DNA from: Alkalibacter rhizosphaerae
GTDB taxonomy: Bacteria > Bacillota > Clostridia > Eubacteriales > Alkalibacteraceae
Assembly: GCF_017352215.1 (NCBI RefSeq)
Contig: NZ_CP071444.1
Location: 1,674,001-1,738,000 of the forward strand
Length of the DNA stretch: 64,000 bases
Reading direction: 5' to 3'
Shown: positions 2 to 59,869 of the stretch, piece after piece
Numbering within the stretch: position 1 is the stretch's first letter
Layout of the letters: each line of letters opens with the position of its first letter
The notes under the pieces: generated by a model
Database searches by the model: none
What the model was told of the DNA's origin: nothing
The model's input: the letters and a program-made list of their open reading frames with translations, nothing else
Made by a program: the position numbers and the translations under genes

Positions 2-754
2 AGTTATCTGAATTTTCCAGGCATGGGAGATGACGTAAACTACGCCGAAGGGATCTTCGTGGGATACCGGTACTACGACATGAAAGAAATGGACGTCCAA
101 TTTCCCTTTGGGTTTGGCTTGTCCTATAGCACCTTCTCCATTGGAAACCTTCGGATGAACAAGGAAGAGTTGGGAGCGGAGGATCTGCTGAAGGTGGAAG
201 TGGATGTGACCAACACCGGAGATCGTGCCGGAGCAGAAGTGGTCCAGCTGTATGTTTCCGACAAGACAGGTTCTGCCATCCGACCGCCAAGAGAGCTGAA
301 AGGATTTGAAAAAGTGTTTTTAGAGCCAGGAGAGACCGAAACCATTTCTTTTGTCCTGGACCGAAGAAGCTTCTCCTGGTACCATGAAAAAATCCAGGAC
401 TGGTATGGAGCAGATGGAGCCTACGACATTTCCATCGGTTCTTCCTCCAGGGACATTTCCCTGTCTCAGGAAGTCCGGTTGACCGGAGCCGTGTCCATTC
501 CTCTGGAGATCCATCGAAACACCCGCATGGGTGACCTCCTGGCGGATCCCGAAACGGCAGCCTTTTTGAAGGTATACATGGAACCCTTGTTTTCCATGTT
601 TGACAAGCCGGATGGCGGGGATGCAGAGGCCAACGAAGTCCAGGATGCATTTTTCCAGACCATCATCATGGAATCTCCCCTGCGCTCCATAGCCGGATTT
701 GCCGGTCTCTCCCGAGAGGCGCTGGATCAGCTGATCCAGGAACTAAAGAAATAG
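2..754 (+). CDS. GH3 family beta-glucosidase, C-terminal part (5' end outside window)
   Basis: The reading frame is open from base 2, so the gene starts upstream and only about 250 C-terminal residues are visible. The first residues (NFPG, then EGIFVGYRYYD) are the conserved GH3 segment that follows the second catalytic domain, and about 100 residues later comes a fibronectin type III-like domain (roughly 60-130) typical of beta-glucosidases and beta-xylosidases. The last 80 residues form an extra tail outside that domain. The family hydrolyses terminal non-reducing beta-linked sugars; the actual substrate cannot be read because the N-terminal catalytic domain is missing. A methyltransferase follows 14 bases later. 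Confidence 0.88.
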   Translation, partial: SYLNFPGMGDDVNYAEGIFVGYRYYDMKEMDVQFPFGFGLSYSTFSIGNLRMNKEELGAEDLLKVEVDVTNTGDRAGAEVVQLYVSDKTGSAIRPPRELKGFEKVFLEPGETETISFVLDRRSFSWYHEKIQDWYGADGAYDISIGSSSRDISLSQEVRLTGAVSIPLEIHRNTRMGDLLADPETAAFLKVYMEPLFSMFDKPDGGDAEANEVQDAFFQTIIMESPLRSIAGFAGLSREALDQLIQELKK

Positions 755-3923: not shown

Positions 3924-3945
3924 AAAAACGACAGGAGGCGAAAAA

Positions 3946-5037: not shown

Positions 5038-5066
5038 AAGAAAGTGAAATGGATAGGAGGAATTTT

Positions 5067-5828
5067 ATGAAACTGTTGCTGTGTATCGACGACACGGACA
5101 ATTTGGAAAGTATTGGAACCGGCGAATTGCTGGAGAACCTGTGCAAAGAACTGGAAGGACCGGGATGGGCCCGTACCGGATTTATTTCCCGTCACCAATT
5201 GTATGTCCACGAAGACATTCCTTACACATCCCACAACAGTTCCATGTGCACTTCTGTTGAACTGGAAGATGACCGGATGGAAGAACTTGTCCGGTTTGCC
5301 CGAGAGTATTTGATCAAACATGCTGCAGAAGGATCGGATCCGGGATTATGCATCCTTGTTCCGGAAAAGCTGACTTCTCTGGAAAAGGAAGGATTGATGG
5401 AGTTTGGACAGCGTGCCAAGATCGAGGTGTTGGATAAAAACCAAGCCTACGATTTTGCCAAAGCCCACGAGCATGCCCTTCTTCTCAGCGAGCATGGCGG
5501 CACGGGAGACGGGATCATCGGAGCCCTTGCGGGATGTGGATTGCGCATGTACGGAAGCGACGGCAGGTTGAAGGGGAAAATAAAACCCCAAGATCCTGGA
5601 GAGGTCCAAAGGGCAAAAGAGGTTTGCGAGCGGTATGGATTCGGCCAAGTCCTGACGGAAGAATTCGAGCCCATCCCACTGGATGATTTGGTCATGTCGG
5701 CAACTCAGATCAAACCGGTCCTGTGGAAACACGAACCCGTCGTCTTGGTGGAACCCTTTGACGGAGAAGAAGCCCAGTGGAGGATCATTGAGAAAAACGA
5801 TCTGAACAAAAAGAGGATCGGACGATGA
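5067..5828 (+). CDS. TiaS-like (tRNA-Ile2 agmatinylcytidine synthase-related) protein
   Basis: A 253-residue protein. The N-terminus (LLCIDDTDN, then GTGELL) and the later GGTGDGIIGALAG match conserved segments of TiaS, the archaeal enzyme that joins agmatine to C34 of tRNA-Ile2. Archaeal TiaS is about 420 residues and carries an OB fold and zinc ribbon, both absent here. Bacteria use TilS for that codon, so the true reaction is probably different. ATG 5067 follows GGAGG by six bases. It is the fifth gene of the transporter operon and overlaps the next gene in an ATGA. Family link is fairly sure; function is unknown. Confidence 0.7.
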   Translation: MKLLLCIDDTDNLESIGTGELLENLCKELEGPGWARTGFISRHQLYVHEDIPYTSHNSSMCTSVELEDDRMEELVRFAREYLIKHAAEGSDPGLCILVPEKLTSLEKEGLMEFGQRAKIEVLDKNQAYDFAKAHEHALLLSEHGGTGDGIIGALAGCGLRMYGSDGRLKGKIKPQDPGEVQRAKEVCERYGFGQVLTEEFEPIPLDDLVMSATQIKPVLWKHEPVVLVEPFDGEEAQWRIIEKNDLNKKRIGR

Positions 5829-6031
5829 ATTTTTGGTCTGAAAATGGCGAAAAGAAGATCTTTGCTGGAGGCAAGGACCACTATGAAGAAGCAGCGGCCC
5901 TTGCAGGAAAATGCATTTACTTCAAGGAAGATGATGAGGACGAGCAAATGGCCCCCGAAAAGATCAGTTGCTACAATTGCCGGTATCGACGATGGACGGC
6001 CGACAGTTTTCAATGCATGAAAAAGGATTGA
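5825..6031 (+). CDS. small four-cysteine protein, probable zinc- or Fe-S-binding
   Basis: A 68-residue acidic-centred protein with cysteines at 30, 49, 52 and 64 (C-x18-C-x2-C-x11-C), enough to hold one zinc or a small cluster. Its ATG overlaps the TiaS-like stop (ATGA), so the two are almost certainly coupled. Because the TiaS-like protein lacks the zinc ribbon of its archaeal relatives, this protein could supply such a module in trans; that is inference. It ends nine bases before the convergent XRE gene with no visible terminator. Confidence 0.75.
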   Translation: MNFWSENGEKKIFAGGKDHYEEAAALAGKCIYFKEDDEDEQMAPEKISCYNCRYRRWTADSFQCMKKD

Positions 6032-6040
6032 GACGGATCG

Positions 6041-7567
6041 TCAATTCACACCTACATATTTTTTCAGCGTGTTCAGCACGGTCTCTCTGCTTTTGGGATC
6101 CGTTCGGATGCGCTGAAATTTTGTCTGGAGATAGTCCCAGAAAGCGGCGGTGAGGTAGGGTTCGTTCAAGGCAAATACAACGGACGATGGTCCGGATTTG
6201 GCCACGATGGCGCCGGTATTTTCTTTTACATACAGGGAAAAATCCCCACCAATCTGCGTTTCCGTCAAGTGGACATGATAATTGGGGACCGTCTCCAAGA
6301 TATGAATGATATGGCGAAGGTGCTCCAGATATTCTTCTTTGGAGTAATAGATTTCCGGCAGATCAAAGATGTCTCCAAAAAGAATGGGGATCTTTTTTTC
6401 GTTCCATTCGTTTATATCCGGCAGATGTAGGATCTCTGTGAAAGTGTGATTGGATGTTGTATCGTGAAAGGATCGAATGCGTTGCTGATGGATCTCCAAA
6501 AGATCATCCCGTATGGAACCATGGTATCGACGCATCCAGGAAGCAACCATCTTTTCCGGCAGGGTCACCAGGGACAATCCGTTGTTCATCAGGATGGTAT
6601 TGCTTTCATGTTTGTCAAAATTCAAAAGAAGGCCTATGCAGGCAGGTTGGTCTTTTTTTGTCAAGATCGTCATCAAGGGACGGCATCGCGCCAGGTAGCT
6701 TTCATATTCCTTCTGGAAGGAAGCAACGGCATCCGGATCGTGCAAAAGCATGTTTGCTGCAGCGTTTTCCTGGCTGCCTACGGACGTGGAGACCAGTGCG
6801 CTGACAGAAGGAGCAACGAACAAGGTCCGTTTAAAGACACCGTCTTTTACTTTCGGGTAGTAGTAGGGTTCGATGGAGCCGGTCATGTACAAGGGCAGCC
6901 ATCGGCCGATGGCGGAAAGCAATTCGTCCAGATCCCGGTTGATGTTGTGGATGATCTTGATCTTGCATCCGAGGAGGATGACTTCCTGCAGCAGGCTTGC
7001 CCACTTGGCGGTAAAAGACAGGTCCTCCGTCAGCCAGCTCATGTTTTCATCGCTGTATAAAAGAAGAGGCACCGGTTTTTTGGTGTGGATCACTTGAGAT
7101 AGAAATTCTATGACGGCATCTCTTTTCCCCTGGATGCCATAGTGGAATTGGATCGGTTCAGCATCGGGAACAACAGAAGCGGAGGAAGGACGTTTTGGAT
7201 TTTGGTCGAAAGAAAAGGAAGAAAAGCGATGGAGAAAATGATCCATGTTTCCCGTTTTTCCAACCACATTTCCATCCAACCATTGAAGCAAGATCGATGA
7301 CAGATCGTCCAGAGCAGGTTCGATTCCCCAGTCGGATCGAAGCGCTTCCTTGAGCGCATTGATCTGATATTCTTCTTTCAGATTCTTTGCAAAACAACCG
7401 GCCATCCGTTGAAGGTAGCCGGCACCGGAAACAGGTTTCCTGCTTCCGTTTTTCAAGCGGCTGATGTGGGAGGCGTCCAAGGAAGTGTGCTTCGCCAGTG
7501 TGCTGTTGGTCATGTTTGTCAAGGTCATCAAATATTGCAGTTTATCATGAAATTCCATAATATACAT
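6041..7567 (-). CDS. large XRE-family HTH regulator
   Basis: A 508-residue protein. Residues about 8-65 form an XRE helix-turn-helix (NSTLAKHTSLDASHISRLKNG). The other 440 residues show no domain I can name; they look soluble and globular, which suggests a sensor or effector part rather than a simple repressor. ATG 7567 is preceded by GGGAAGGGATC on the minus strand; a second ATG at 7558 lacks its own site. It lies between the transporter operon (convergent) and the DUF2974 gene, whose end is 39 bases upstream of it. Target genes are unknown. Confidence 0.75.
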   Translation of the reverse strand: MYIMEFHDKLQYLMTLTNMTNSTLAKHTSLDASHISRLKNGSRKPVSGAGYLQRMAGCFAKNLKEEYQINALKEALRSDWGIEPALDDLSSILLQWLDGNVVGKTGNMDHFLHRFSSFSFDQNPKRPSSASVVPDAEPIQFHYGIQGKRDAVIEFLSQVIHTKKPVPLLLYSDENMSWLTEDLSFTAKWASLLQEVILLGCKIKIIHNINRDLDELLSAIGRWLPLYMTGSIEPYYYPKVKDGVFKRTLFVAPSVSALVSTSVGSQENAAANMLLHDPDAVASFQKEYESYLARCRPLMTILTKKDQPACIGLLLNFDKHESNTILMNNGLSLVTLPEKMVASWMRRYHGSIRDDLLEIHQQRIRSFHDTTSNHTFTEILHLPDINEWNEKKIPILFGDIFDLPEIYYSKEEYLEHLRHIIHILETVPNYHVHLTETQIGGDFSLYVKENTGAIVAKSGPSSVVFALNEPYLTAAFWDYLQTKFQRIRTDPKSRETVLNTLKKYVGVN

Positions 7568-7605
7568 CGATCCCTTCCCGTGAAGTTCTTGTTTACATTT
7601 AACAC

Positions 7606-8805
7606 TTAGTCACGGTTCGTGTCAAGAGAGTTTTCGGACTTCTCTTTGAGGTTTTTTTTCTTTCGCCATGGCAATTTGCTTTTTAAAGCTCTGCCGATGT
7701 ATTTCTTAACGATCCTTTTCAGGGAGTCGAATTTTTCTTCCAATACTTCCTGGGTCTGTGGATCCAACTCCGGTTTTTTGTTTTTCAATTCCTTCCAGAG
7801 TCCGAGGGTATCTTTGGTAGCGTCCGGTTTCAAGGTCCCGTTGGATGCACCAAGCATGTCGAACAGTCCATCCAGGAGGATCCGGCGTTCTTCCAGGTCC
7901 ATTTCTCCCACCCAGGATTGAATGATCTTTTCATTCATCTTGGAGAATTCACTCAGCTTGCCTTCCACAAATCCGTTTGGAGAGATCATCCAGCGAAAAG
8001 GATTGTGCTGGTCGAACATTTTTCCCTCCGAATCGACAACGATGGTTTTGCCGAGAAGGGGGAAGAACTTCCCGACGATGGTGTCTTCCGGCATGAAGTG
8101 AAGGATCCGGTCTTCCACTGGTTGAAAATCCTTTCGGTCCAATACGCTGAAGTTGAATCCCAAGCCGTCGAAACTGTAGATTTTTTGAAGTCGATCTTGA
8201 TCGCCGGCACCGATTTTCGTGGCAGAGTAGACGGACAAGTGACCGCCTTTGGAATGACCGGCTAGGGCAAAGGTGCTGGATTCCATGGATAAGACCTTTT
8301 TCAGATAGATCTCTGCAGAATCTTGGGCAGGGATCTTTTCCTTGTAAAAGGTTTGGAAGTCTTCCTTCCAGCCTACCCATTTGTTGTCGGTCCCACGGTA
8401 GGTGACCACGAATCGGGGCGTTCGATGGAAAATATCATGTTCCAGAAGAAAAAATGTCAAGGCGGCAAATTGCTGGCTGTTGTCATAATCGATTTTTTCT
8501 TCAAAATAAGCCAAACCAACGGATCCGAACCGCGGAGAATCGGCGATCATGGACAGAAGATTCAATACATTTTTGTCGTAGGAGGAATTTGGCTGGTAGT
8601 CATTTCCCAGTTGCTGTTTTCGTTTTTGAAACAGGTTTGCGGCGTGATGAAGTGTGATGTAGCGATGGCTGTCGCCCGTCGTTCCCACGATTCCGTTCCA
8701 GTTGACATAGCTGATCATGGTAAAGACGGCTGCATCCAGTTCATTCATGGGGTCGTACTCGAATTTGATATCCTTGCGCCATTGCACATAATCCAATAGG
8801 TTCAT
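7606..8805 (-). CDS. DUF2974 (Mbeg1-like) alpha/beta hydrolase
   Basis: A 399-residue lipase-like protein. TYRGTD (135-140) is the oxyanion segment and GHSKGG (183-188, nucleophile Ser185) the elbow found in DUF2974 proteins, which belong to the alpha/beta hydrolase superfamily. No signal peptide is apparent, so it is probably cytoplasmic. The last 40 residues are very Lys-rich. ATG is preceded by GAGGAG. Substrate is not known for the family. Confidence 0.85.
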   Translation of the reverse strand: MNLLDYVQWRKDIKFEYDPMNELDAAVFTMISYVNWNGIVGTTGDSHRYITLHHAANLFQKRKQQLGNDYQPNSSYDKNVLNLLSMIADSPRFGSVGLAYFEEKIDYDNSQQFAALTFFLLEHDIFHRTPRFVVTYRGTDNKWVGWKEDFQTFYKEKIPAQDSAEIYLKKVLSMESSTFALAGHSKGGHLSVYSATKIGAGDQDRLQKIYSFDGLGFNFSVLDRKDFQPVEDRILHFMPEDTIVGKFFPLLGKTIVVDSEGKMFDQHNPFRWMISPNGFVEGKLSEFSKMNEKIIQSWVGEMDLEERRILLDGLFDMLGASNGTLKPDATKDTLGLWKELKNKKPELDPQTQEVLEEKFDSLKRIVKKYIGRALKSKLPWRKKKNLKEKSENSLDTNRD

Positions 8806-8895
8806 TTGTTGTTCTCCTCACATTAGGAAGGTGTACCGTCCCATAGCCTCATTATCCCATGTCCTGAGGTTCTTGGCAATGGAGAACCGATCGGA

Positions 8896-9543
8896 TCACT
8901 TCAATGTGAAAGTAGTATATCGAATGTCGTCGGTGTACCGGATACGAAGTCCGACTTCTTCAGCAATGTATTCCATGGTTTTGGGAGTATAAAAGGAAAT
9001 GTGGGTGCGGTCTCGAATGTAGTGCCAACCGGCAAAGCTTTGGGGATCGTTTGGGTGAAAGTGGGTCATGACGGCCAGGATGCCGTCTCTATTCAACAAG
9101 CTTTTGAGGAGCCGAAAAGCGGTCAGTGGATCTTTCAAGTGTTCCACGACTTCCGTGCTGCTGACCAGATCGTATTTTTTATTTTCATAGGATCTCCAAG
9201 GGGAGTAATAGTAGTCATAGATATCCATCTTGTATCCGTAGTCACGCTCCAGCAATTGTGCCAGGACTGGTTCCGGGCCGCTGCCGAAATCAAATCCTCT
9301 TTTCTGGTCGGGTGCAAAGGGCAGGATTGCATTTTCAATGAAGGCTTTCAAAAAAGCAACATATCCAGGATCTTCCATGGAATTGTTGTGGCTGTTATAG
9401 ATTTCAAGCTCGTCTGCTTTGGTCAGCAAGTCTTTTTCATCTTTGAAAATAAAATCGCAAAAGGCACAGTGATGATACGCTCCAAATTTTGTTTCTTGAT
9501 ATTTTACCGTGTTCGAGTTACATATTCTGCATCGTTGATCCAT
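8896..9543 (-). CDS. SAM-dependent methyltransferase with N-terminal zinc ribbon
   Basis: A 215-residue protein. Cys5/Cys8 and Cys26/Cys29 form a treble-clef or zinc-ribbon-like head, followed by a Methyltransf_23-type Rossmann domain with motif I GFDFGSGPEP and a later acidic strand end. This arrangement (zinc head plus methyltransferase) is common among enzymes of sugar or small-metabolite modification. AAGGAG precedes ATG 9543. It is divergent from the glycosyltransferase gene at 9737, which could put it in an envelope context, but that is not evidence of substrate. Confidence 0.8.
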   Translation of the reverse strand: MDQRCRICNSNTVKYQETKFGAYHHCAFCDFIFKDEKDLLTKADELEIYNSHNNSMEDPGYVAFLKAFIENAILPFAPDQKRGFDFGSGPEPVLAQLLERDYGYKMDIYDYYYSPWRSYENKKYDLVSSTEVVEHLKDPLTAFRLLKSLLNRDGILAVMTHFHPNDPQSFAGWHYIRDRTHISFYTPKTMEYIAEEVGLRIRYTDDIRYTTFTLK

Positions 9544-9626
9544 AAATTCTCCTTATCACGTTTTTGTTCTTTCCGGCATGTACAAACCGGCAAGTGAATA
9601 GTAGGGTCCATTATAGCACAGATCAA

Positions 9627-9656
9627 TTGTTTGAATGATCAAAAAAAAGGTACAAT
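9627..9656 (+). promoter_or_regulatory. promoter for the glycosyltransferase-deacetylase pair
   Basis: TTGTTT (9627-9632) and TACAAT (9651-9656) are 18 bases apart. The longest open frame of the downstream gene would start inside this promoter at 9635, which argues for the later start at 9737. Confidence 0.45.
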
Positions 9657-9736
9657 TTAAGAAAGAACCGATTTTCTGTATTTTGGTGAAATCACCAATG
9701 GACAAGGTAAGCGACTATATGAATGGAGACCATGCT

Positions 9737-10843
9737 ATGAAGATTTTATTTCTACCGATTCTCCAAATCCCAACAGGTCATCATGCTGTGGCCGACTCCC
9801 TGATTAGTTCTATCAAAAAGCGGCGGGACAATATCGAATGTTCCAAAGTGGATGTTTTTTCCTATGCCAATCCGTCCCTTGAAAAATTTCTACGATCCAC
9901 CTATCTGCGCTGGATTCGACGTTTCCCCAACTCTTATGGTCGGATCTATTTGGACACCATGCATGCATCCCGCAGGGATAAAACCTTTGGGGTGCTGAAA
10001 ATATTTGCAAAACACATGAAGCGGTTGCTGGAGGAAGAAAAGCCGGATCTGATCGTCTGCACATCCTCCATTCCCTCTCATATTTTGGAGATCCTGTTGG
10101 ATACGGGTTACACAACAGCTCCCATCGTCAACGTGTATACTGATTTTTGGATGAACAACCTGTGGGGAATAACCTATGCAGACTATCATCTTGTAACGGA
10201 CCAAACTTTTAAAGAAACGGTGTTGAAGGTTGGTCCCAAAGAACCTTCCAGGGTATATGTTACAGGAATACCAGTGGATGAACGCTATATGGAACCAAAA
10301 CCTGTGGAGCAGAACAAGCTGCAGCCGGAGATCTTGGTTTCCGGAGGGAGCATGGGGCTGGTTGGCGCCAAAAAAGTGGTCCAGCAGATCGAATCCATGA
10401 GCGGTCATGGATATTCCGTTACGGCCCTTTGTGGAAGAAATAAAAAACTGTACGAAAACATCAGCCATTCCAATACGGATGTGAAACCCATACCCTACAT
10501 TCATTCCAGTGAAGCCATGAACCGGCTCTATGACCGATGCGGCGCCATCATCACCAAACCCGGCGGGGTGACCATGAGCGAATGCCTCCACAAACGGTTG
10601 CCTGCTTTTATTCACGGAGAACTGCCGGGACAGGAAGAGGTCAATAAAAACTATTTGATGGAACGTGGACTGGTCCATTCTTTAGACTGGAACCAGCCAC
10701 TGATTCAACAGCTGGACCGGTTTTTTCTGGATGACGAAGAGGTTCAGGCCTGGCGCAAACGAGTGGATGAGTATCTGGCAGAAATTGAAATGCCTTATTG
10801 GGAAGCCATGTTGAAGATCATCGATGAAGTGGAAAAAGGATAA
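9737..10843 (+). CDS. MGDG-synthase/UgtP-type glycosyltransferase
   Basis: A 368-residue GT-B glycosyltransferase. The opening KILFLPILQIPTGHHAVADS is the N-terminal motif of the MGDG synthase/UgtP family, and KPGGVTMSECLHKRLP near residue 275 is the nucleotide-sugar-binding end of the second Rossmann lobe. Members transfer glucose or galactose to diacylglycerol, making membrane glycolipids and lipoteichoic acid anchors; YkoN-like members are less well defined. ATG 9737 follows GGAG by nine bases; longer starts fall in or near the promoter. Its stop overlaps the deacetylase ATG (TAATG). Confidence 0.85.
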   Translation: MKILFLPILQIPTGHHAVADSLISSIKKRRDNIECSKVDVFSYANPSLEKFLRSTYLRWIRRFPNSYGRIYLDTMHASRRDKTFGVLKIFAKHMKRLLEEEKPDLIVCTSSIPSHILEILLDTGYTTAPIVNVYTDFWMNNLWGITYADYHLVTDQTFKETVLKVGPKEPSRVYVTGIPVDERYMEPKPVEQNKLQPEILVSGGSMGLVGAKKVVQQIESMSGHGYSVTALCGRNKKLYENISHSNTDVKPIPYIHSSEAMNRLYDRCGAIITKPGGVTMSECLHKRLPAFIHGELPGQEEVNKNYLMERGLVHSLDWNQPLIQQLDRFFLDDEEVQAWRKRVDEYLAEIEMPYWEAMLKIIDEVEKG

Positions 10844-12132
10844 TGGAGGACGTTGCCTTGAATTGGATCAAGTGGACTGTCGGATTGATTGCAGGTGCGT
10901 TTGTCATCTACGATTTACTCCCGGATCTCTTGGCTCATCGACTGGGGATCGGCGCCTGGAAACGGCACTATGGTGCAGGAGTCGTCTTGACCTTTGATGA
11001 TGGACCGGATCCCCGATACACGCCGGATTTTCTGGATTTTCTCCAAGAAAGATCCATCCCGGCTTGTTTTTTTGTGGTGGCGAAAGACGGACTGGAGCAT
11101 AAGAATATCCTGCTTCGAATGAAGGAAGAAGGGCATCAGATCGGTTGCCACGGATGGATGCACCGGCATGGATGGTCCCGGTCCCCCTGGAAAACCTGGA
11201 GAGAATGGACACGAGCTGTAGAGGCACTGGAAAAGATCCTGGACCAGGAGATCCTTTATGTGCGGGCGCCGTGGGGTGCAGTCAATCTGGCACTGATGGT
11301 ATGGTGCAAGGCAAAGGGAAAGCATCTCATTGGCTGGACCGCCAAGGGTTGGGACTGGAAAAACAAACGTCGCCCGGAAGAAATCGTTTCCGATCTTTTA
11401 AAAAAGGCAGATCATGGCACCATCCTCCTCCTTCACGATGGTGGAGGGGAAGCCGGTGCGCCGAAAAATACGTTGGAAGCTCTGCCCTTATTGGCAAAAG
11501 GAGTGCTGGAGGAAATAAAAGTTCCCTTCGTCCCCCTGGAATTGTCGGACTGGACCTGGAGAAAGAGGATCGGATTTCGACTGTGGGAGCAATGGGAAGC
11601 TTTTTATGCAAAACACAACCAGGTGGAACGGATCAGTTTTCAAAACGCCTTTCGCATCGCACAAGGAGTTTATGAAGGTCCCGATCTTATGGGAGAAGAC
11701 GGCAACCTGGTCGCTCGTCGTGGAGATCGTGCAGGAATGATCCATCTGGAAAACATCCACTTTCAAAAATTCGGAACAGATCCAAAGCGGATCGCATTGC
11801 GATCGATCCGGTTGGTTCGAAATTCCATGAAAGAGTTGGCAGTGTTTTCTGCAACGGATCCAAGATACAAGGATGTGGATGTATTTGTGGGTCTGACGCT
11901 TCTGAGCAGGGGGGTGAAAGGAGTGGGATTCCATGTAGAGGAAGATTCCGCTCCCCCTTCCAAAGTCATTGGATGGATCCAGCAGATGGTGTATCGGGTC
12001 TATAATCCGGCAAACTTGAAGCATACCGGCGAAAATGAATCCACACCAAAAGTGGTGTGGATCAGCAGACAGGAATTGATGGACAAATATTTGCCCTCTT
12101 CAGGAGACGTCCACGCCCAGGACCTCTCGTAG
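10843..12132 (+). CDS. polysaccharide deacetylase (NodB/CE4) with extra C-terminal domain
   Basis: A 429-residue protein. One membrane anchor near residues 10-28 precedes a NodB domain: motif 1 TFDDGPDP (50-57) and HGWMH for the metal-binding histidines. LLLHDGG is the late motif. Beyond about residue 215 there is a second soluble domain of about 200 residues resembling the YkoP-type extension of some Firmicutes deacetylases. The ATG at 10843 is coupled to the glycosyltransferase stop; a TTG at 10858 with GGAGG eight bases before it is an equal alternative. Probable role: N-deacetylation of an envelope glycan or glycolipid at the membrane. The 3' end overlaps the convergent MBL gene by 33 bases. 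Confidence 0.85.
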   Translation: MEDVALNWIKWTVGLIAGAFVIYDLLPDLLAHRLGIGAWKRHYGAGVVLTFDDGPDPRYTPDFLDFLQERSIPACFFVVAKDGLEHKNILLRMKEEGHQIGCHGWMHRHGWSRSPWKTWREWTRAVEALEKILDQEILYVRAPWGAVNLALMVWCKAKGKHLIGWTAKGWDWKNKRRPEEIVSDLLKKADHGTILLLHDGGGEAGAPKNTLEALPLLAKGVLEEIKVPFVPLELSDWTWRKRIGFRLWEQWEAFYAKHNQVERISFQNAFRIAQGVYEGPDLMGEDGNLVARRGDRAGMIHLENIHFQKFGTDPKRIALRSIRLVRNSMKELAVFSATDPRYKDVDVFVGLTLLSRGVKGVGFHVEEDSAPPSKVIGWIQQMVYRVYNPANLKHTGENESTPKVVWISRQELMDKYLPSSGDVHAQDLS

Positions 12133-12978
12133 GATCATAGGGATCATGTAGCCGGCATTTAGCAGAAATGCCGCTTCCGGCTGGTAGGATGCCAGGGTCT
12201 CGTTATAGTAGGTTTCTTTCAACAGCTGGATCAGGCCGTCCAGATCCAGACCTTCTTCATATCCTTCCACCAGCAGCTCCTTGGTTCGCTCCACGTTTCG
12301 GCTGGAAGCGTCAAAGTAGTCCTTTGCGTCTTTGCCATGGACAAGGCCGTAATGAGGGATCAAAACATGCTCCGCTTCTTTGGAAGCGGCTTTTTTTATG
12401 GAGTCCAGAGTAGCCTGGTGGCCTACCAGATGGCAGGGGATCACATCTTCCACCCCGTCACCCAGGGTGCCGAAGGTCTCGTTGGCAAGGAGAAGATCCG
12501 CTTCCTTGCTGTAAAAAGCGATGGCGCAGCGGGTATGCCCCGGTGTTTCCAGCACTTCCAGGGTCATGTTCCCAAAGTCCAGAAGATCGCCCTCTTTGAC
12601 CACCAGATCAATGGCCAGCTCCACCGGAGCTGGTGGGAACGAAGATACCCCAAAAGACTGGGCCACGTGCTCGTTCATTTCTTTCAAGACCCTTTTTGCA
12701 GTCGGCCGCTGCAAGGCCTTGGCGGCGTGGGCGGAAGAAACCACAAGTGCTTCCGGCCAGCGGGCTTTTACATAGGGAGTCCCGGATACGTGGTCGTAAT
12801 GGGAATGGGTGAGAAGGATATAATCGAGGGGACGCCCCTGTAAATGGTTCTCCAAATTTTTCACGACGGTTTCTGCACAAAAAGCAAAACCGGAATCGAT
12901 GAGGGCCGTCTTTTCATCGCCGATGAGCAGATAACACTCTCCGCCGGCTACAGCCCCTACATTTACGATGTCAAACAT
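12100..12978 (-). CDS. MBL-fold metallohydrolase
   Basis: A 292-residue metallo-beta-lactamase-fold enzyme. THSHYDH (57-63) supplies the H-x-H-x-D-H metal ligands, and TPGHTRCAIAFY supplies the next histidine. Glyoxalase II-like and lactonase-like members share this form, so the substrate is open. ATG 12978 has GGAG nine bases before it; a longer frame to 13089 lacks a binding site. It is convergent with, and overlaps, the deacetylase gene. Confidence 0.85.
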   Translation of the reverse strand: MFDIVNVGAVAGGECYLLIGDEKTALIDSGFAFCAETVVKNLENHLQGRPLDYILLTHSHYDHVSGTPYVKARWPEALVVSSAHAAKALQRPTAKRVLKEMNEHVAQSFGVSSFPPAPVELAIDLVVKEGDLLDFGNMTLEVLETPGHTRCAIAFYSKEADLLLANETFGTLGDGVEDVIPCHLVGHQATLDSIKKAASKEAEHVLIPHYGLVHGKDAKDYFDASSRNVERTKELLVEGYEEGLDLDGLIQLLKETYYNETLASYQPEAAFLLNAGYMIPMILREVLGVDVS

Positions 12979-13167
12979 GGCAAAATCTCCGTTTCTATAA
13001 GGATTGGTGAATATTTCCTCTATTTTAGCACAATTGTCAAAAGGTGGGGTGATTTTTATCCACGGGGGAGTTCTTTTGCAGGAAGGCATTGTTTTGCCGG
13101 TTCAATTGTGATACTTTTGATAATGTATATTTCAAATACTAAATCTAGTTTGCAAATGGAGGAAAGT

Positions 13168-16100
13168 ATGCACAAACGCAGTCGAGTTTTGGCAATGATA
13201 GTTCTCGCGATTTGGATGATATTGAATACAAAACCCGGAGTGTCGGCCCAGTCCGTGGAAATGGACTTTGACGCCATGTTCCATGGTCACGGTTCCGCCA
13301 TGTTGCTTATTGACCCCGACACGGGACAAATTTTGCATGCCAACGAAGCGGCATCTAAATTTTACGGATATGCCGTGGATGAACTTGCTATCATGAATAT
13401 CAACGACATCAATACCTTGTCCTCTGCAGAAACCGCAGAAGAAATGGAAAAAGCCTTGGAAGAAGAGCGAAACTTCTTTGTATTTCAACACCAGGTGGCC
13501 TCTGGAGACATAAAAACGGTGGAAGTGTACTCCTATCCCTTTGTTTACAAAGGACAACGGATTTTGTATTCCATCATTCATGACATCACCCCAAGAACCA
13601 TGCTGGAAGCAGAAAATCGTCGGATGGAATTCGCCATTATTGCCGGATTGGCGTTGGTTTTGGTCTTGAGCCTGTTTTATGCCTTTCGATGGCGGAAAAA
13701 TCACAAGGATTTGTTGATGAAGACGAAGGAGATCGAAAACTTCAACGAACTGCGAAAAGCGTTTATAGATGCCGACGATCGATTGATCTACCTGAAAGAT
13801 GAGAATCTGCGCTACCTGTTTGTCAATACCGCCATGGAACACTTTTACGGGATCCCGGAAGAAGACTTGATCGGGAAGGAAGACCAGGAGATCACCAGTA
13901 AGGAGTTTGCAGACCTGCGACGAAAAACGGATGAAATCGTGTTGACGGAAAAACGACGCCACGAGCAGGATGTCCAATGGAACGATCGAATCTATAAAAT
14001 CAATAAATTTCCCATACAGCTCATGAACGATAACACAGGTGTAGGTGCCTATGTGGAAGACGTGACAGAAGAGCGAAACCATCATACGGAGCGGGAGCGT
14101 ACATTGATGCGCAACGCCATCTTGGTGGACGTGTTCACAAAATCCTTTTCGGACACCCGGGAACAATTGAAATATGTTTTGGACCGAGCCATGGAACTGA
14201 CGGGGAGCCGATTTGGCTATATCTTTCAGTATGACGAAGAAAAAGAAATTTTTGAGATGAACACTTGGTCTGACGATGTGATGGAGGCCTGTAAGACTGC
14301 AGAGGTCCAGACCATATACGAACTGACTAAAACCGGGTTGTGGGGGGAAGCGGTCCGACAACAGCGGGCCATCATCGACAATGACTACCAAGCACCTGGT
14401 CTCATGAAAAAAGGCCTCCCTGAAGGACATGTGATCATGAAGAATTTCATGACCGTCCCCATTTATTTTAAGGGCAAGATCGTGGCGACCATTGGATTGG
14501 CCAACAAAGAAACGGACTATGATGCCTTGGATGTGGATCAGGTGACGGTTTTGATGAATGGCGTATGGAATGCCGTTCAACAAAAAAGCGGAGAAGAGCA
14601 GCTGCAGTTGCTGCTGGATTCAACAGCGGAAGGCATTTACGGCATGGATCTGGAAGGCCGATGTACTTTCATCAATCGCAGCGCTCTGGAATTTCTGGGT
14701 TATGAAGAGGAAGGGGCATTGCTGGGGACCAACATCCATGAGGCGATCCATTATCGTACCAGGCAAGGACACCTGATGCCCTTGGATGAATGTCGAATCC
14801 GCATCGCCGTAGAAGAAGGCCGGGGAGTCCACGTGACGGACGAAGTATTCTGGAGAAAGGACAATACATCTTTCGACGTGGAGTATTACTCGTATCCTCA
14901 GTATCGACACGGCGAACTGGTGGGAGCGGTCGTCACTTTTGTCGACAGCACACACCGCAGGAAGTTGGAAGAAAACCTGTATAAAGAAAAAGAACAGTTT
15001 CGCACCACCCTTCTGTCCGTTGGAGATGCGGTCATCTCTACAGACAATCACGGTCGCATTCAAGTCATGAACCCCATTGCGGAAGAACTGACTGGATGGA
15101 CCCAGCAGGAAGCGCAAGGGAAACGATTTGAAGAGGTATTCCATATCATCAACGAATACACGAGAGAAATATGCGAGAACCCGGTGGAGAGGGTATTGGA
15201 GATCGGAGAGATCATCGAACTGGCCAATCATACCATTTTGATCGCCAAAGATGGAAAAGAGATCCCTATTGAGGACAGCGCAGCCCCCATTACGGATATA
15301 AAGGGCAGAACCACCGGCGTGGTCATCGTTTTCCGGGATTTTTCCGACAAACGGGAAAAAATTCGAGAGATCGAATATTTGAGTTTTCACGACCACTTGA
15401 CAGGACTGTACAATCGGCGGTATATGGAAGATTCCATTCGACGACTGGACGCACAGCGGAATTTGCCCTTCACCGTCATGGCAGTAGACGTCAACGGCTT
15501 GAAACTGACCAACGATGCCTTTGGTCATCGGATGGGAGACCTACTGCTCCAGAAAGTGGGTGGGCTGCTCAAGGAGGTTTGCAGGGCGGACGACATCCTG
15601 GGAAGAATGGGTGGAGACGAGTTTGTCATACTCCTGCCGAGTACAACGGATGAACAGGCAAAAAGCATCAAACGAAGGATCATGGAAGCGTCCACTACCA
15701 TCAAACTGGATTCGGTGATCGTCTCCCTGGCGGTTGGTCATGCAACGAAAGAAAACATGGAGCAAAGCATGGGATCGGTGATGACCCTGGCAGACAACAA
15801 CATGTACAAGGACAAGCTCAAGTACGGAAAAACCATGAGAAGCCAAACCATCGAGGTGGTGTTGAAAAACATCAACTTGAAATACGATAAAGAGCAAGTC
15901 CATACAGAACGGGTTTCCCAGTATTGCGAAGCCATTGCAAGAAAAATGGATTTTTCGGAAAAGGAGATCCAGGACATCAAAACGGCAGGAGTGCTTCATG
16001 ACATCGGAAAGATCATGGTGCCGCCGGAACTGTTGAACAAACCGGGCCCATTGACGGAAGAAGAGTTTGAAATCGTGAAAAGACACCCGGAGATCAGCTA

Positions 16101-55546: not shown

Positions 55547-55574
55547 AAGACACCGGGAAAAGCCGGTGTCTTTT
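55547..55574. terminator. terminator between FmdE and SRAP genes
   Basis: AAGACACCGG (55547-55556) pairs with CCGGTGTCTT (55563-55572), then TTTTG; the A-rich side gives a weaker reverse signal. Confidence 0.85.
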
Positions 55575-55579
55575 GCATG

Positions 55580-56161
55580 TCAAGAGGAAACTTTCCACTG
55601 TAATTCCTTTGTGGAAATATCCATCAGATCCCCTACAGGCGGTGCTTGATCCAGCCAGGCTTCCCGGTGTTCTTTCGGCACGATGACGGGCATCCGGTCG
55701 TGGATAAAGGAAATCGACGGAGAGGCCGGCATGGTCAAAATAACAAAGACGGGGAGCTCCAAATCTTTTTCCATCCGGTACAAGCCGGCCATATAGATGG
55801 GTTCTTTTTTTCCGATGGCATATTTTTCTTTTTTCTTGTCTACGGTCCGCCACTCAAAAAACCAGCTGGCAGGGATCAGACAGCGGTTTTGGCTGTAGGG
55901 GGTTCGAAAAGTAGGCTTCTGGTTTGCCGTTTCCACCCGGGCATTGATCAGATGACCTTTGCCCTGGAATCCTTTAAAACCCCAGGCCATGGCTTGGGGT
56001 ACGTCCTTGGTAAGGACGGGAACCACGTTGGTGGGAAAGATCTCTCCCGTTTTCAGATCGATGGGGTTGCCCACCGCCTTGGATCGATCTTCAATGTCCT
56101 TGATGATTTTTTTGATCTCCCGTTCTTCCTGGTCATCGGCGATAAAGTATCTTCCGCACAT
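55580..56161 (-). CDS. yedK: SRAP/YedK-type DNA abasic-site shield protein
   Basis: A 193-residue protein. Starting at ATG 56161 puts the catalytic cysteine at residue 2 (MCGRY), as required; it bonds covalently to abasic sites in single-stranded DNA. N in PTNVVPV, the Glu in WFFEWR and the His in FIHDRMPVIV complete the HMCES/YedK active site. AGGATGGA precedes ATG. Last gene of the XRE-ImmA operon, two bases after the small protein, which puts it in a DNA-damage response with DinB. Confidence 0.93.
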   Translation of the reverse strand: MCGRYFIADDQEEREIKKIIKDIEDRSKAVGNPIDLKTGEIFPTNVVPVLTKDVPQAMAWGFKGFQGKGHLINARVETANQKPTFRTPYSQNRCLIPASWFFEWRTVDKKKEKYAIGKKEPIYMAGLYRMEKDLELPVFVILTMPASPSISFIHDRMPVIVPKEHREAWLDQAPPVGDLMDISTKELQWKVSS

Positions 56162-56163
56162 GG

Positions 56164-56436
56164 TCATCCATCCTTTCTTTCCAGAAACCACTTGCCGGGG
56201 GACGGCTGGCTGATTTCCGTATTTCGTTCAAAAAACAGGTATCGCTTTCGGTTGCTGATCTGTACCGTATACCGATCTCCCTGGCCGCCGGCCTTTTGGG
56301 CAGGGGCGGGCCGAACTTCCAGCACCTTGTCGATGACGTATTCCCGGCCGTCTTCCCAGACCAGGGAACGGGGCAGAAGAGAGCCTTCCTGGTCAAAGGT
56401 GACGGTAACAGGTACGTATACTTTGGAAGGATGCAT
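56164..56436 (-). CDS. small conserved protein of the DinB locus
   Basis: A 90-residue basic protein, beta-rich by composition (VYVPVTVTFDQEG, EYVIDKVLEVRP, RYTVQISNRKRYLFFE). Similar small proteins sit beside Y-family polymerase genes in other clostridia, to my recollection. No known domain is visible. It lies between the ImmA/IrrE gene (six bases) and SRAP, all on one transcript. Confidence 0.7.
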   Translation of the reverse strand: MHPSKVYVPVTVTFDQEGSLLPRSLVWEDGREYVIDKVLEVRPAPAQKAGGQGDRYTVQISNRKRYLFFERNTEISQPSPGKWFLERKDG

Positions 56437-56442
56437 AAAACA

Positions 56443-56988
56443 TCACTCCTTCTCGGAATAATTTTTTAAAAAGTTGGAGGAGGAAACAAAGGGAGGGTCC
56501 ACCACTTTGTATCCTTTTCGTTTCAATACCCGAAACTTGAAGTCCAAAAGCTCCGCCGGAACCTTCAACTTGGCGGCCGCCTGGAAAAAGGACAGGTCGT
56601 CGTTCAGCAAAGAAAGAACCTTGCTGTCTTCCAGCAACAGATCTGCGGCAAAGATATTCGCCTCGTATTCATAAACGGAGGTCTCGTCAAAAAGAACAAA
56701 ATCATGAAAGGAATGAAGACCGGAGGCTTTTCGGTGGAGGATGCCATGGCCCAGTTCGTGGGCCAGAATGATCCGCTGCAAGGCTTCCGGCAGGTCCTCG
56801 TTCAAGACGATGGCCTGCTTCCTGGACTGGTAGAGATAAAAGCCCTTGCAGTCTTCCGGATGGGAACCCATGGGGGAAAAGAGCAAAGATATGCCTAGAA
56901 GGCGACACAGCCGGAAGGGGTCCGATTCCCTGTATTTATTTTGGATCCGTTTCACTTCTTTTGAGATGAGGGAGATGGACAGGCTCAT
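56443..56988 (-). CDS. ImmA/IrrE-family metallopeptidase
   Basis: A 181-residue protein. HELGH (77-81) is the zinc motif, and EYEANIFAADLLL provides the downstream Glu ligand seen in ImmA and IrrE. Such peptidases cut a cognate XRE repressor (ImmR, DdrO) and thereby derepress mobile-element or DNA-damage genes. It is coupled to the XRE gene by an ATGA overlap (56985-56988), a near-universal arrangement for these pairs. No prophage or ICE genes are near. Confidence 0.92.
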   Translation of the reverse strand: MSLSISLISKEVKRIQNKYRESDPFRLCRLLGISLLFSPMGSHPEDCKGFYLYQSRKQAIVLNEDLPEALQRIILAHELGHGILHRKASGLHSFHDFVLFDETSVYEYEANIFAADLLLEDSKVLSLLNDDLSFFQAAAKLKVPAELLDFKFRVLKRKGYKVVDPPFVSSSNFLKNYSEKE

Positions 56989-57422
56989 GGTTTCTGCTTT
57001 CCGGGAGCATAGGTTTTTCTGGATTCTTCCTTGCAGGTGACATAAGCGGTCATCACTGCTTCAAAAAAAGCGTCCTTGGCTTCCTGGGACAGGCTTCCAC
57101 CGGCAAACAGGGCCATGTTTTTTTCCAAAAGTTCCCGTGCTTCCTTTTCTCCCGTCGCTCCATAGGTTTGGTATACATTTTCCAGATGGATGTCTTTCGT
57201 CAGGCCCTCTTGAGGATCTTCCGCCGTTTCGCTTAGAAGGTAGTCCGTGGATACACCCAGGACTTTTGCCAAACGTCTGGCAGTGGATCCCCGGGGTTTG
57301 GACTGGTTGGTTTCGTAGGAAGTGATGGAACGCTGGGACAAGCCGGCTTCCTTTGCCAGTGTATCCTGGCTCAGCCCCAGGATCTCTCTTGCCTGTCTTA
57401 CTTTTTCTCCAAAGGTTTTCAT
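56985..57422 (-). CDS. XRE-family repressor, probable ImmA substrate
   Basis: A 145-residue protein. Residues 1-65 hold an HTH_3 domain (LSQDTLAKEAGLSQRSITSYE), and the C-terminal 75 residues form a helical tail that could be the dimerisation and cleavage region. ATG 57422 follows AAAGGTGG by five bases; a longer frame to 57431 lacks spacing. Its gene starts just beside the operator array, so autoregulation is likely. Divergent from dinB. Confidence 0.9.
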   Translation of the reverse strand: MKTFGEKVRQAREILGLSQDTLAKEAGLSQRSITSYETNQSKPRGSTARRLAKVLGVSTDYLLSETAEDPQEGLTKDIHLENVYQTYGATGEKEARELLEKNMALFAGGSLSQEAKDAFFEAVMTAYVTCKEESRKTYAPGKQKP

Positions 57423-57448
57423 AAAAACCACCTTTCACAATACATTGT

Positions 57449-57544
57449 AACTTCATAAAACTTCATAAAAAATGCTTGACGGTTCTTTCAAGACGGTGCT
57501 ATGATCGAGATAGAAGTTGCAAGAAGTTAAATTCATCATACTTC
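57449..57544. promoter_or_regulatory. operator array: five GAAGTT-type half-sites around the dinB promoter
   Basis: AACTTC at 57449-57454 and 57459-57464 (ten bases apart), GAAGTT at 57513-57518 and 57523-57528 (again ten apart), and ACTTC at 57540-57544. Three copies of ACTTCATAAAA (57450, 57460, 57540) are exact. One pair lies before the -35 box and the opposite-orientation pair at the start of transcription. This fits cooperative binding or looping by the adjacent XRE protein. Confidence 0.75.
57476..57505 (+). promoter_or_regulatory. dinB promoter
   Basis: TTGACG (57476-57481), 18-base spacer, TATGAT (57500-57505). It is bracketed by the operator half-sites. A weak opposing promoter for the XRE gene may use TACAAT (minus strand, 57444-57449). 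Confidence 0.7.
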
Positions 57545-57586
57545 ATAAAAGGAAAAAAGTCAAGAAGGGTTGGAGGTGAAAACAGG

Positions 57587-58828
57587 GTGGGATTGAGGAC
57601 GATTTTACACAGCGATTTGAATGGGTTTTATGCATCCGTGGAGATCATGCTGAACCCAAGCCTGCGGGGAAAAGCGGTGGCTGTTTGCGGCAGCACCCAG
57701 GAGCGGCACGGGATCGTACTGGCTAAATCGGAGCTGGCGAAAAAAGCGGGGATCAAAACCGGAATGGTGAACTGGGAAGCCCGGCAAAAATGCCCGGACT
57801 TGATCGTGGTGCCTCCCCAGTACGACCAATATTTAAAATACTCCAAACTCACCCAGGAGATCTACCGCCGGTTTACGGACAAGGTGGAACCTTTCGGCAT
57901 GGACGAATGCTGGCTGGATGTGACGGAAAGCGTGGGGATCTTCGGATCGGGAATGGACATTGCCCGGGAAATAAAAGAGACGGTGAAAAAGGAGTTGGGG
58001 CTTACCGTAAGCATTGGCCTTTCCTTCAACAAGATTTTTGCCAAACTGGGATCCGACATGAAAAAGCCGGATGCCATCACCGTCGTGGACGAAGGGACTT
58101 TTCGGGAAAAGGTGTGGCCCCTGCCTGTGGATGAACTGATCTATGTGGGAAGGTCCACCCGAAACAAGTTGGCAAAATACGGCATATGCACCATTGGACA
58201 GCTGGCCCGGGCGGATGCGGAACTGCTTCAGCGGGTTCTGGGAAAAAATGGAATCCGTATTTGGATCTACGCCAATGGAAGGGACATTTCCAGAGTCATG
58301 GAGACGGGATGGGAATCCCCCGTCAAATCCATCGGACACGGCATCACCTGCACGGCAGACCTGAAAAACGACCTGGAAGTGTGGAAGGTGCTGTTGGAAC
58401 TGTCCCAGGATGTGGGACACCGTTTGAGGACCCACGAACTGTGTGCAGGAGGGGTGGAGTTGACGGTAAAAGACAGCGGACTTCATGCTCGACAGTTTCA
58501 AACCCGGCTGGCGGTCCCCACCCAAAGCCCCATGGAGATCGGAAAAACGGCCAAGATCCTTTTTGAAAAAAACCATCACTGGGAGATGACGGTGCGGGCC
58601 GTAACGGTACGGGCAATAAATCTGATGGACTGGAACGATCCCCGGCAGATTCACTTGCTGGATGACATGGCAAAACGGCAAAAACAGGAGCGGTTGGAAG
58701 ATGCGGTGGAGGAGATCCGAAGGCGGTTTGGAAAACGGGCGGTCCACTCTGCCCTTTTAATGGGGGACATCAAAATACCGGACAGCAAAATCCATCAAGT
58801 GGTGTTGCCCGGCATGATGCACGAGTAG
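57587..58828 (+). CDS. dinB: Y-family DNA polymerase (DinB/Pol IV type)
   Basis: A 413-residue translesion polymerase. Asp10 in HSDLNGFYASVE, and Asp106-Glu107 in GMDECWLDV, are the metal-binding residues. The little finger occupies roughly 245-350, and a long tail (about 60 residues) follows. GTG 57587 follows GGAGGTG by eight bases; TTG 57593 is too far. The gene shares its regulatory region with the XRE-ImmA operon, so expression on damage is likely. GTGGGATTGAGGACG differs from the usual start, as do other members of the Clostridia group. Confidence 0.93.
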   Translation: MGLRTILHSDLNGFYASVEIMLNPSLRGKAVAVCGSTQERHGIVLAKSELAKKAGIKTGMVNWEARQKCPDLIVVPPQYDQYLKYSKLTQEIYRRFTDKVEPFGMDECWLDVTESVGIFGSGMDIAREIKETVKKELGLTVSIGLSFNKIFAKLGSDMKKPDAITVVDEGTFREKVWPLPVDELIYVGRSTRNKLAKYGICTIGQLARADAELLQRVLGKNGIRIWIYANGRDISRVMETGWESPVKSIGHGITCTADLKNDLEVWKVLLELSQDVGHRLRTHELCAGGVELTVKDSGLHARQFQTRLAVPTQSPMEIGKTAKILFEKNHHWEMTVRAVTVRAINLMDWNDPRQIHLLDDMAKRQKQERLEDAVEEIRRRFGKRAVHSALLMGDIKIPDSKIHQVVLPGMMHE

Positions 58829-58906
58829 AAGAAGGGGGCCGTCCGTTGACGGCACGGCCATTGTATGATTAAATCGAAGAAGAGAAACAATGGAAGGAGC
58901 GATGGA

Positions 58907-59869
58907 ATGGACATGCTGAAAAACATGGATCCCCAATTGAAGCGGGTTTTCGAAAACATGGCGAAAGGTCCGGAAGAAATGGATCTTCTGGCGTCGAGAA
59001 ATCGAATGCATGAAGTATTTCAGGGAATGGGAGACCTGGCGCCGAAAAACGAAAACGTTCGAGAGTGGGAGGAGAAGATCCCCGGTTTGGGAGAAGCGCC
59101 AAAAGTACGGGTGAAAGTGTATGAACCGGAAGAGGCGGAAGAAGACCTTCTGCCTGCACTACTTTTTTTGCATGCCGGAGGGTTCTTTTTAGGCATGCCG
59201 GAAATGAGCGACGAGCTCTGCCGAAATTTAGCAGAATTTGTGGAATGCAAAGTGGTCAGCGTGGATTATCGGTTGGCACCCGAACATCCCTATCCGGCGG
59301 CGGTGGAAGACAGCTATGCCGCCCTGGAGTGGATCTTTCAAAACAGCAGCTCCCTGGATGTGGATCCGGAGCGGATCGCCATTTGCGGCGTCAGTGCGGG
59401 AGGATGTCTGGCCGCCGGTGTTGCCTTGATGGCACGGGACAAGGGTACCATTGATCCCTGCCTCCAGATGCTTCTTTATCCGGTATTGGATCATCGTCAC
59501 GTCACCGCCAGTTCCAGGGCCATCGATGACAGCCGGACTTGGACCACCGGGAAATCCAAAATGGCCTGGGAAGCTTACTTGGGTGATTTGAATGGGGATG
59601 TGCCTGCCTATGCATCGCCGGCCACATCGGAAGATCTAAAGGGATTGCCCAGGACATATATCGCCGCCTGTGAATTGGATATTCTTCGGGATGAAGCGGT
59701 GGAATACGCCCGCCGGCTCTACGAAGCGGAAGTGGCGACGGAACTCCATGTACTTCCCGGAACTTTTCATGCATTCGATGCCATCGTACCCAAGGCGGAC
59801 ATCTCCATTCGTTTTGAAGGAGAGATCATCCATGTACTCCAGGAGGTTTTTGAAAATGGAAAAGCGTAA
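58907..59869 (+). CDS. HSL-family esterase (alpha/beta hydrolase)
   Basis: A 320-residue esterase. HAGGFFLG is the oxyanion HGGG-type motif with the second Gly as Ala, GVSAGG holds the nucleophile serine, ELDILRDEA the aspartate and GTFHAFD the histidine. The N-terminal 60 residues form a lid. ATG 58907 follows AAGGAG by seven bases. It overlaps the next gene by 14 bases. Probably hydrolyses short esters. Confidence 0.9.
   Translation: MDMLKNMDPQLKRVFENMAKGPEEMDLLASRNRMHEVFQGMGDLAPKNENVREWEEKIPGLGEAPKVRVKVYEPEEAEEDLLPALLFLHAGGFFLGMPEMSDELCRNLAEFVECKVVSVDYRLAPEHPYPAAVEDSYAALEWIFQNSSSLDVDPERIAICGVSAGGCLAAGVALMARDKGTIDPCLQMLLYPVLDHRHVTASSRAIDDSRTWTTGKSKMAWEAYLGDLNGDVPAYASPATSEDLKGLPRTYIAACELDILRDEAVEYARRLYEAEVATELHVLPGTFHAFDAIVPKADISIRFEGEIIHVLQEVFENGKA

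Follow-up and report, generated by a model that had tools for sequence, protein, structure and literature searches.

Here, we present a gene cassette of Alkalibacter rhizosphaerae in which a repressor of the XRE family and an ImmA/IrrE-type peptidase are encoded together with a Y-family DNA polymerase, and which probably functions as a self-regulated cassette for translesion synthesis. XRE would repress its own operon and the divergent polymerase gene dinB, ImmA would cut XRE after a DNA-damage-type signal, and both operons would then be released. The cassette is located at positions 55,580 to 58,828 of a 64,000-nt stretch of DNA (contig NZ_CP071444.1, positions 1,674,001 to 1,738,000), which we call the window and to which the feature coordinates refer. 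The genome around it consists of a single contig of 2.45 Mb, and Alkalibacter mobilis is its closest named relative.

Pfam matches to all four proteins agree with the names that an earlier note on this DNA had given them. The XRE repressor (56985..57422, minus strand; HTH_3, PF01381, 1e-15) consists of a helix-turn-helix (HTH) domain at residues 1-68 and a two-helix C-terminal domain, and is followed by an M78 zinc peptidase of the ImmA/IrrE type (56443..56988, minus strand; PF06114, 9e-17) with an intact HELGH motif at residues 77-81. An SRAP/YedK-type abasic-site protein (55580..56161, minus strand; PF02586, 2e-36; YedK structures, 1e-14 to 4e-13) and a Y-family polymerase of the YqjH/DinB type (57587..58828, plus strand, GTG start; IMS, 3.5e-43; IMS_C, 1.7e-18) complete the named genes, while the fifth, left unnamed there, is a 90-amino-acid open reading frame (ORF90; 56164..56436, minus strand). 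XRE, ImmA, ORF90 and SRAP are arranged head to tail and are likely encoded on one transcript, because each gene overlaps or almost abuts the next and a hairpin resembling a terminator lies 3′ of SRAP (55547..55572, minus strand; 10-pair stem with 6 G-C pairs, shared with a facing FmdE-family gene).

The control region between XRE and dinB

We extracted 52 divergent intergenic regions from the window and its relatives, 44 of which were non-redundant. Near-consensus sigma-70 promoters face each other in 41 of these 44 regions, with their -10 boxes 24-42 bp apart, compared with no such pair in 30 dinucleotide-shuffled sets. In the window, the predicted dinB promoter (TTGACG-18-TATGAT, 57476..57505, plus strand), which has its conserved partner opposite, faces a sequence match to a promoter of the XRE operon (TTGACT-17-TATGAT, 57535..57563, minus strand). 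The same arrangement was found in 12 of 28 control loci that carry XRE-ImmA without a divergent DinB; the design is not unique to DinB loci but nearly universal with DinB.

These regions also contain short direct repeats. Identical 6-mers recurred 83 times at a lag of 10 bp, compared with 3.2 on average and at most 12 in shuffled sets (overlapping 6-mers are counted and are not independent events), and 38 times at a lag of 9 bp; more peaks, spaced by about one turn of the helix, lie near 22, 33, 43, 54 and 63 bp. The half-site of the window is AACTTC. Two copies, 10 bp apart, constitute a candidate central operator (GAAGTTGCAAGAAGTT, 57513..57528, minus strand) between the -10 boxes. A tandem pair with the same spacing forms a flanking operator (57448..57470, plus strand; repeat TAACTTCATAAAACTTCATAAAA) directly upstream of the dinB -35 box, at a position that is maintained in relatives, and a second, imperfect copy of this 23-nt repeat (TAAATTCATCATACTTCATAAAA, 87% to the first; 57528..57550, plus strand) overlaps the -10 box and spacer of the XRE promoter. 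Across 19 regions of the AACTTC type, most half-sites take nearly fixed positions: +6..8 and +16..18 relative to the XRE -10 box (+6 and +16 in the window and in most of these relatives), and 9-11 and 18-21 bp 5′ of the dinB -35 box. A half-site is often found within a promoter spacer as well.

The strongest argument for the encoded XRE as the protein that binds the operator is that the half-site changes with its recognition helix: SQR or SKR goes with AACTTC, IGxRT with AGTTGC and SPRSV with AAGTTC. This covariation strongly suggests that XRE binds the conserved half-sites of the control region. With the usual distance of 7 nt from a -10 box to the start site, the central half-site pair appears to fill the interval between the two facing start sites, so that one bound repressor would block both promoters. 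Control of both promoters by XRE, as the earlier note had claimed, is thus supported by the conserved operator design and the covariation, and the position of the operator over the predicted start sites, together with the strength of the promoters, points to repression as its sign.

It is improbable that XRE instead activates dinB, or acts as a dual regulator that activates from the site upstream of the dinB -35 box and autorepresses its own operon from the central site. The upstream half-sites occur in most AACTTC-type loci, and the XRE protein DdiA of Myxococcus directly or indirectly activates dnaE2 (PMC12288472), but near-consensus dinB promoters should need no activator, the central operator covers both predicted start sites, and 15 of 41 regions have similar half-sites before the -35 box of XRE as well.

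Repression by XRE seems to be confined to this locus. Throughout the genome, the operator pair was detected only at the cassette, and other matches, with 3 mismatches, did not exceed the control level. We therefore rejected a wider XRE regulon and regard the system as a switch of this one locus, unlike the regulon of DdrO in Deinococcus, whose palindromic radiation/desiccation response motif (RDRM) occurs at ~20 genes.

Two deviating arrangements were noticed. In L111, L112, L115, L120, L122 and L123, an inverted repeat such as GTGAANTTNAANTTCAC lies between the -10 boxes and apparently replaces the tandem repeats. In L096, the intergenic region extends over 1260 bp and seems to have acquired a nitroreductase-like gene between XRE and the polymerase divergent from it; repeats resembling the operator lie at either end.

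Linkage to polymerases and relation to LexA

For the survey of relatives, an XRE-only alignment (A1) was scanned against 84,980 species genomes. The 80 best-matching loci, which are clostridial, and the window were then annotated using iterated hidden Markov models for all five genes as well as UvrX, YolD, TraX and integrase. Among the XREs that seeded the alignment, three were linked to DinB, two to UvrX and one to TraX, so that the percentages hold for this XRE subfamily and not for ImmA pairs in general. ImmA was found in 79 of the 81 loci. Polymerase counts are based on the 70 loci with usable flanks, the window included, and 59 of these have a gene for a Y-family polymerase within ~6 kb, in three layouts and with two polymerase types: 49 with a divergent DinB, one with DinB placed otherwise, eight with UvrX downstream and one with a divergent UvrX. 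Since 59 of 70 relatives share it, the XRE-ImmA-polymerase arrangement is far beyond chance. Relatives of the same family and order with XRE-ImmA beside a polymerase that were recognized early are A. mobilis (L033), a metagenome-assembled genome of the Eubacteriaceae (L034) and the more distant L037 and L038. In L103 (3001-4687) and L104 (6001-7687), the XRE-ImmA pair is followed by a TraX-like membrane protein in place of a polymerase.

Conservation of the coupling between XRE, ImmA and DinB, which the earlier note had proposed to check, is borne out by these counts, but the make-up of the set as given there needs correction. SRAP, found in just 11 of 50 DinB loci, is an occasional passenger, whereas the 90-aa ORF90 (43 of 50 DinB loci and none of the UvrX loci) is a real core partner of DinB. 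In L077, L080, L085, L090, L091, L093, L095 and L102, ORF90 is found on the other strand, 3′ of dinB, an arrangement that links it to DinB more than to the switch. YolD accompanies UvrX in 5 of 9 loci. SRAP beside a Y-family polymerase is also described in PMC12926913, there for a UmuC-like group.

Pairs of COG2856 and Xre proteins have been proposed as toxin-antitoxin systems (PMC2701414), and the cassette could accordingly be such a pair that merely lies near dinB through the clustering of defence islands. We consider this very improbable, as the fixed divergent orientation and the shared promoter/operator region in 41 of 44 cases, kept across diverse Clostridia, would be unexpected of a random neighbour.

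Inducible mutagenesis in bacteria is usually explained via LexA. The A. rhizosphaerae genome has exact GAACN4GTTC boxes upstream of lexA (two) and 30 bp upstream of recA (one), but the control region in the window contains none, even with one mismatch, nor is there any between genome positions 1,319,848 and 1,827,855, the stretch that holds the cassette at 1.731 Mb. None of the 44 related control regions has a LexA box, and their one-mismatch matches (4, versus 2.4 expected) are at chance level. On these grounds we rejected LexA control of the cassette, and control of the whole set by LexA through an atypical site, for which the presence of LexA and of boxes before lexA and recA might speak, is barely credible given the same counts. 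A second, canonical dinB at 1.630 Mb (G000:C1:1629625-1630863) likewise has no LexA box. The earlier designation of the regulon as LexA-independent is therefore supported in the sense of not being a direct LexA target; LexA and RecA are present in the cell, and RecA could still act as the activator of ImmA, by analogy with ICEBs1, whose ImmA is activated by RecA-dependent DNA damage (PMC10233336).

The proposed switch and its cargo

This organization resembles the ImmR/ImmA modules of ICEBs1, TnSmu1 and phi105-type phages, in which an XRE repressor is likewise adjacent to a small M78 peptidase with an HEXXH motif. Cleavage of ImmR takes place at F95-M96, within the linker that joins its two predicted C-terminal helices (PMC8960796), and the AlphaFold model of the window XRE, with a five-helix HTH domain followed by helices 74-107 and 113-138, suggests the same topology; its N-domain matches the ImmR structure (Z 12.4, root-mean-square deviation 1.5 over 65 residues). 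DdrO is cut at L106-R107, also in the loop between the last two helices (PMC8072749). Here, the structural match comprises only the N-domain (residues 1-72), and the equivalence of the loops is one of topology, not superposition. At the junction of the last two XRE helices lies the nearly invariant LFAGG (105-109), the AGG of which is strictly invariant in alignment A4, followed by a KDA...AY..CK stretch that family alignments show to be kept across the XRE family. Because ImmR and DdrO are both cut in this loop, LFAGG is the predicted cleavage region of XRE, and the family membership of ImmA suggests that it is the cutting enzyme.

The known systems differ from the cassette in what they control. 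ImmR/ImmA governs the excision of mobile elements, in contrast to the Y-family polymerase, ORF90, SRAP and conserved face-to-face promoter/operator region found here. DdrO/IrrE (PprI) of Deinococcus likewise combines an M78 peptidase with an XRE repressor of DNA-repair genes without LexA, but IrrE has a C-terminal GAF domain and is not itself damage-induced, whereas the ImmA of the window (181 aa; match to IrrE 3dte with E 0.0016, residues 30-128 only) has no GAF domain and is encoded in the operon. CapH/CapP, which pairs an XRE repressor with an M78 peptidase activated by single-stranded DNA (ssDNA), controls an abortive-infection operon in the cyclic-oligonucleotide-based antiphage signalling system (CBASS; PMC10904395), in contrast to translesion synthesis here.

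The cargo is consistent with a role in damage tolerance. DinB comprises the IMS catalytic domain and a C-terminal RecA-NT-like motif, LEDAVEEIRRRFGKRAV, that is kept in most relatives; such motifs were read as RecA-binding sites by Timinskas and Venclovas (PMC6511836), and by its sequence DinB is a YqjH/UvrX-type polymerase with a predicted RecA-binding tail. ORF90 matched no Pfam, NCBIfam or PHROG family above threshold, its best Pfam match, DUF6504, remaining below (E 0.069, 13.8 bits versus a cut-off of 24.2). Its profile aligns with DUF6504 members of other Bacillota (hhalign, probability 75, E 2.5e-5, 70 columns), five of which adjoin a DinB homologue. The ORF90 model is all-beta with eight strands (mean confidence, pLDDT, 87), and Foldseek and VIA-align returned no convincing solved relative, so that its assignment as a probable DUF6504/ImuB-C-like partner of DinB rests on profile similarity and linkage. 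Coupling to ImuB-C proteins has been reported for two subgroups of YqjH polymerases, mostly from Clostridia (PMC6511836), and ORF90 is probably such a partner. The SRAP protein starts with Met-Cys (MCGRY) as in YedK and has the NAR, FFEW and HDRMP motifs. With a RecA-NT-like tail on DinB and an ORF90 that is probably ImuB-C-like, the cargo resembles a mutasome, as in YqjW-YqjX, UvrX-YolD and the clostridial YqjH/ImuB-C couples, which likewise combine a RecA-NT polymerase with a small beta-barrel partner (PMC6511836). For YqjW and UvrX, LexA/SOS control was predicted or shown; XRE and peptidase go unmentioned in PMC6511836, and XRE in PMC12926913.

In the mechanism that we propose, XRE bound to tandem AACTTC half-sites between and upstream of the facing promoters would keep its own operon and dinB repressed at the same time. 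ImmA would become active upon a signal of the DNA-damage type (ssDNA and/or a RecA filament) and would then cut XRE, most likely in or beside the LFAGG loop; the cut repressor would fall apart and both strong promoters would fire. The output would be a RecA-binding polymerase and its barrel partner ORF90, possibly as a RecA-DinB-ORF90 complex, and in the Alkalibacter lineage also SRAP, which would protect abasic sites, while XRE and ImmA newly made along with the cargo would reset the switch. DNA damage is suggested as the trigger by the cargo and by the family of the peptidase, PprI/IrrE and CapP being activated by ssDNA (PMC10904395).

Several observations weigh against this mechanism. The sensing step is its least secure part: PprI needs its GAF domain for activation by ssDNA (PMC10904395), and as ImmA has none, this step is not transferable from IrrE. 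Of the loci with usable flanks, roughly one in six is without a polymerase in its neighbourhood. Loci L111-L123, which belong to a second, UvrX-type XRE clade, lack the tandem arrangement and appear to rely on inverted repeats, and half-sites upstream of the dinB -35 box could suit an activator too. Finally, distances correlated poorly across modules (0.09-0.29) among the 45 loci in which the four core genes are all present, module partners having been exchanged.

Module exchange, mobility and genomic setting

In the same 45 loci, distance correlations were 0.80 for XRE-ImmA and 0.77 for DinB-ORF90 (values not corrected for shared ancestry). Because distances correlate within these pairs and poorly across them, the cassette behaves, judged by sequence divergence, as a switch module and a mutasome module that have been re-paired. 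In L111, L112, L115, L120 and L122, for example, DinB-ORF90 is combined with an XRE of the UvrX-type clade.

The complete genome of the human gut phage NatCom_991 (L206, 3068-5844) carries polymerase, XRE, metalloprotease and a small ORF in cassette order, with the same face-to-face promoters. The same XRE-ImmA family is also present in IMG/VR contigs, and some loci lie beside integrases. Another Alkalibacter species lacks the cassette, as do two of the other members of the family. Being carried by mobile elements and missing from a congener, the cassette is an accessory, transferable module. The absence of mobile-element genes reported in the earlier note is accurate for the surroundings of the cassette in the window, where no integrase, transposon gene or tRNA was seen next to it, but does not extend to relatives on the phage and at integrase-linked loci.

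These occurrences also bear on the possibility that the switch is real but responds to a signal other than DNA damage, such as zinc or redox stress, phage infection or element excision, with the polymerase as cargo of a mobile-element immunity module. The presence of XRE-ImmA on NatCom_991 and IMG/VR contigs, beside integrases and an operon of the bacteriophage exclusion (BREX) type, several loci without polymerase, the absence from another Alkalibacter species and the link of IrrE to zinc/redox signalling (PMC7907104) would fit such a signal. We nevertheless regard it as unlikely, since the cargo consistently concerns damage tolerance (a polymerase with a RecA-NT-like tail, an ImuB-C-like partner and SRAP) and the window copy has metabolic neighbours and shares its downstream synteny with A. 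mobilis.

Returning to damage-triggered release, we tentatively extend it, with somewhat less than even confidence, to a second, transferable DNA-damage response beside LexA/SOS in Clostridia, in which an interchangeable XRE-ImmA switch would have been joined repeatedly to various mutasome modules that bind RecA (DinB-ORF90, UvrX-YolD, with or without SRAP) via a stereotyped face-to-face promoter/operator region, and its spread by phages and conjugative elements would confer LexA-independent inducible mutagenesis. Each part is already known, as protease-controlled XRE repressors govern integrative and conjugative elements, phages, CBASS and the Deinococcus response. We found no description of a protease-switched XRE over a Y-family polymerase cassette, or of such an operator design, in the open literature, which is weak evidence of absence as most subscription journals lay outside the search. 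If the cassette works as proposed, an error-prone polymerase is under a damage switch of its own in many Clostridia of the gut and the environment, as well as on some of their phages and integrative elements, with a bearing on mutation rates, SOS-inhibitor strategies and the shaping of host repair by mobile elements. The cassette is of interest as it is widespread, mobile and directly testable, through its predicted cleavage loop as well as through a compact operator in which tandem 10-bp half-sites lie between the facing start sites.

The genes flanking the cassette in the window encode DUF2569, FmdE, esterase, DGC and DUF429 proteins, and a search for Rfam RNA elements and tRNA attachment sites near it found none. 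In L034 (G003, 3102-13444), the arrangement DinB<>XRE-ImmA-ORF90 is located between a Tn916-like integrase/excisionase set and BREX-like brxA, brxB and brxC, which were named by eye. An alpha/beta-hydrolase gene (58904-59869) starts 75 bp after dinB, with which it may be co-transcribed, and adjoins dinB in A. mobilis as well (L033, 6829-7785).

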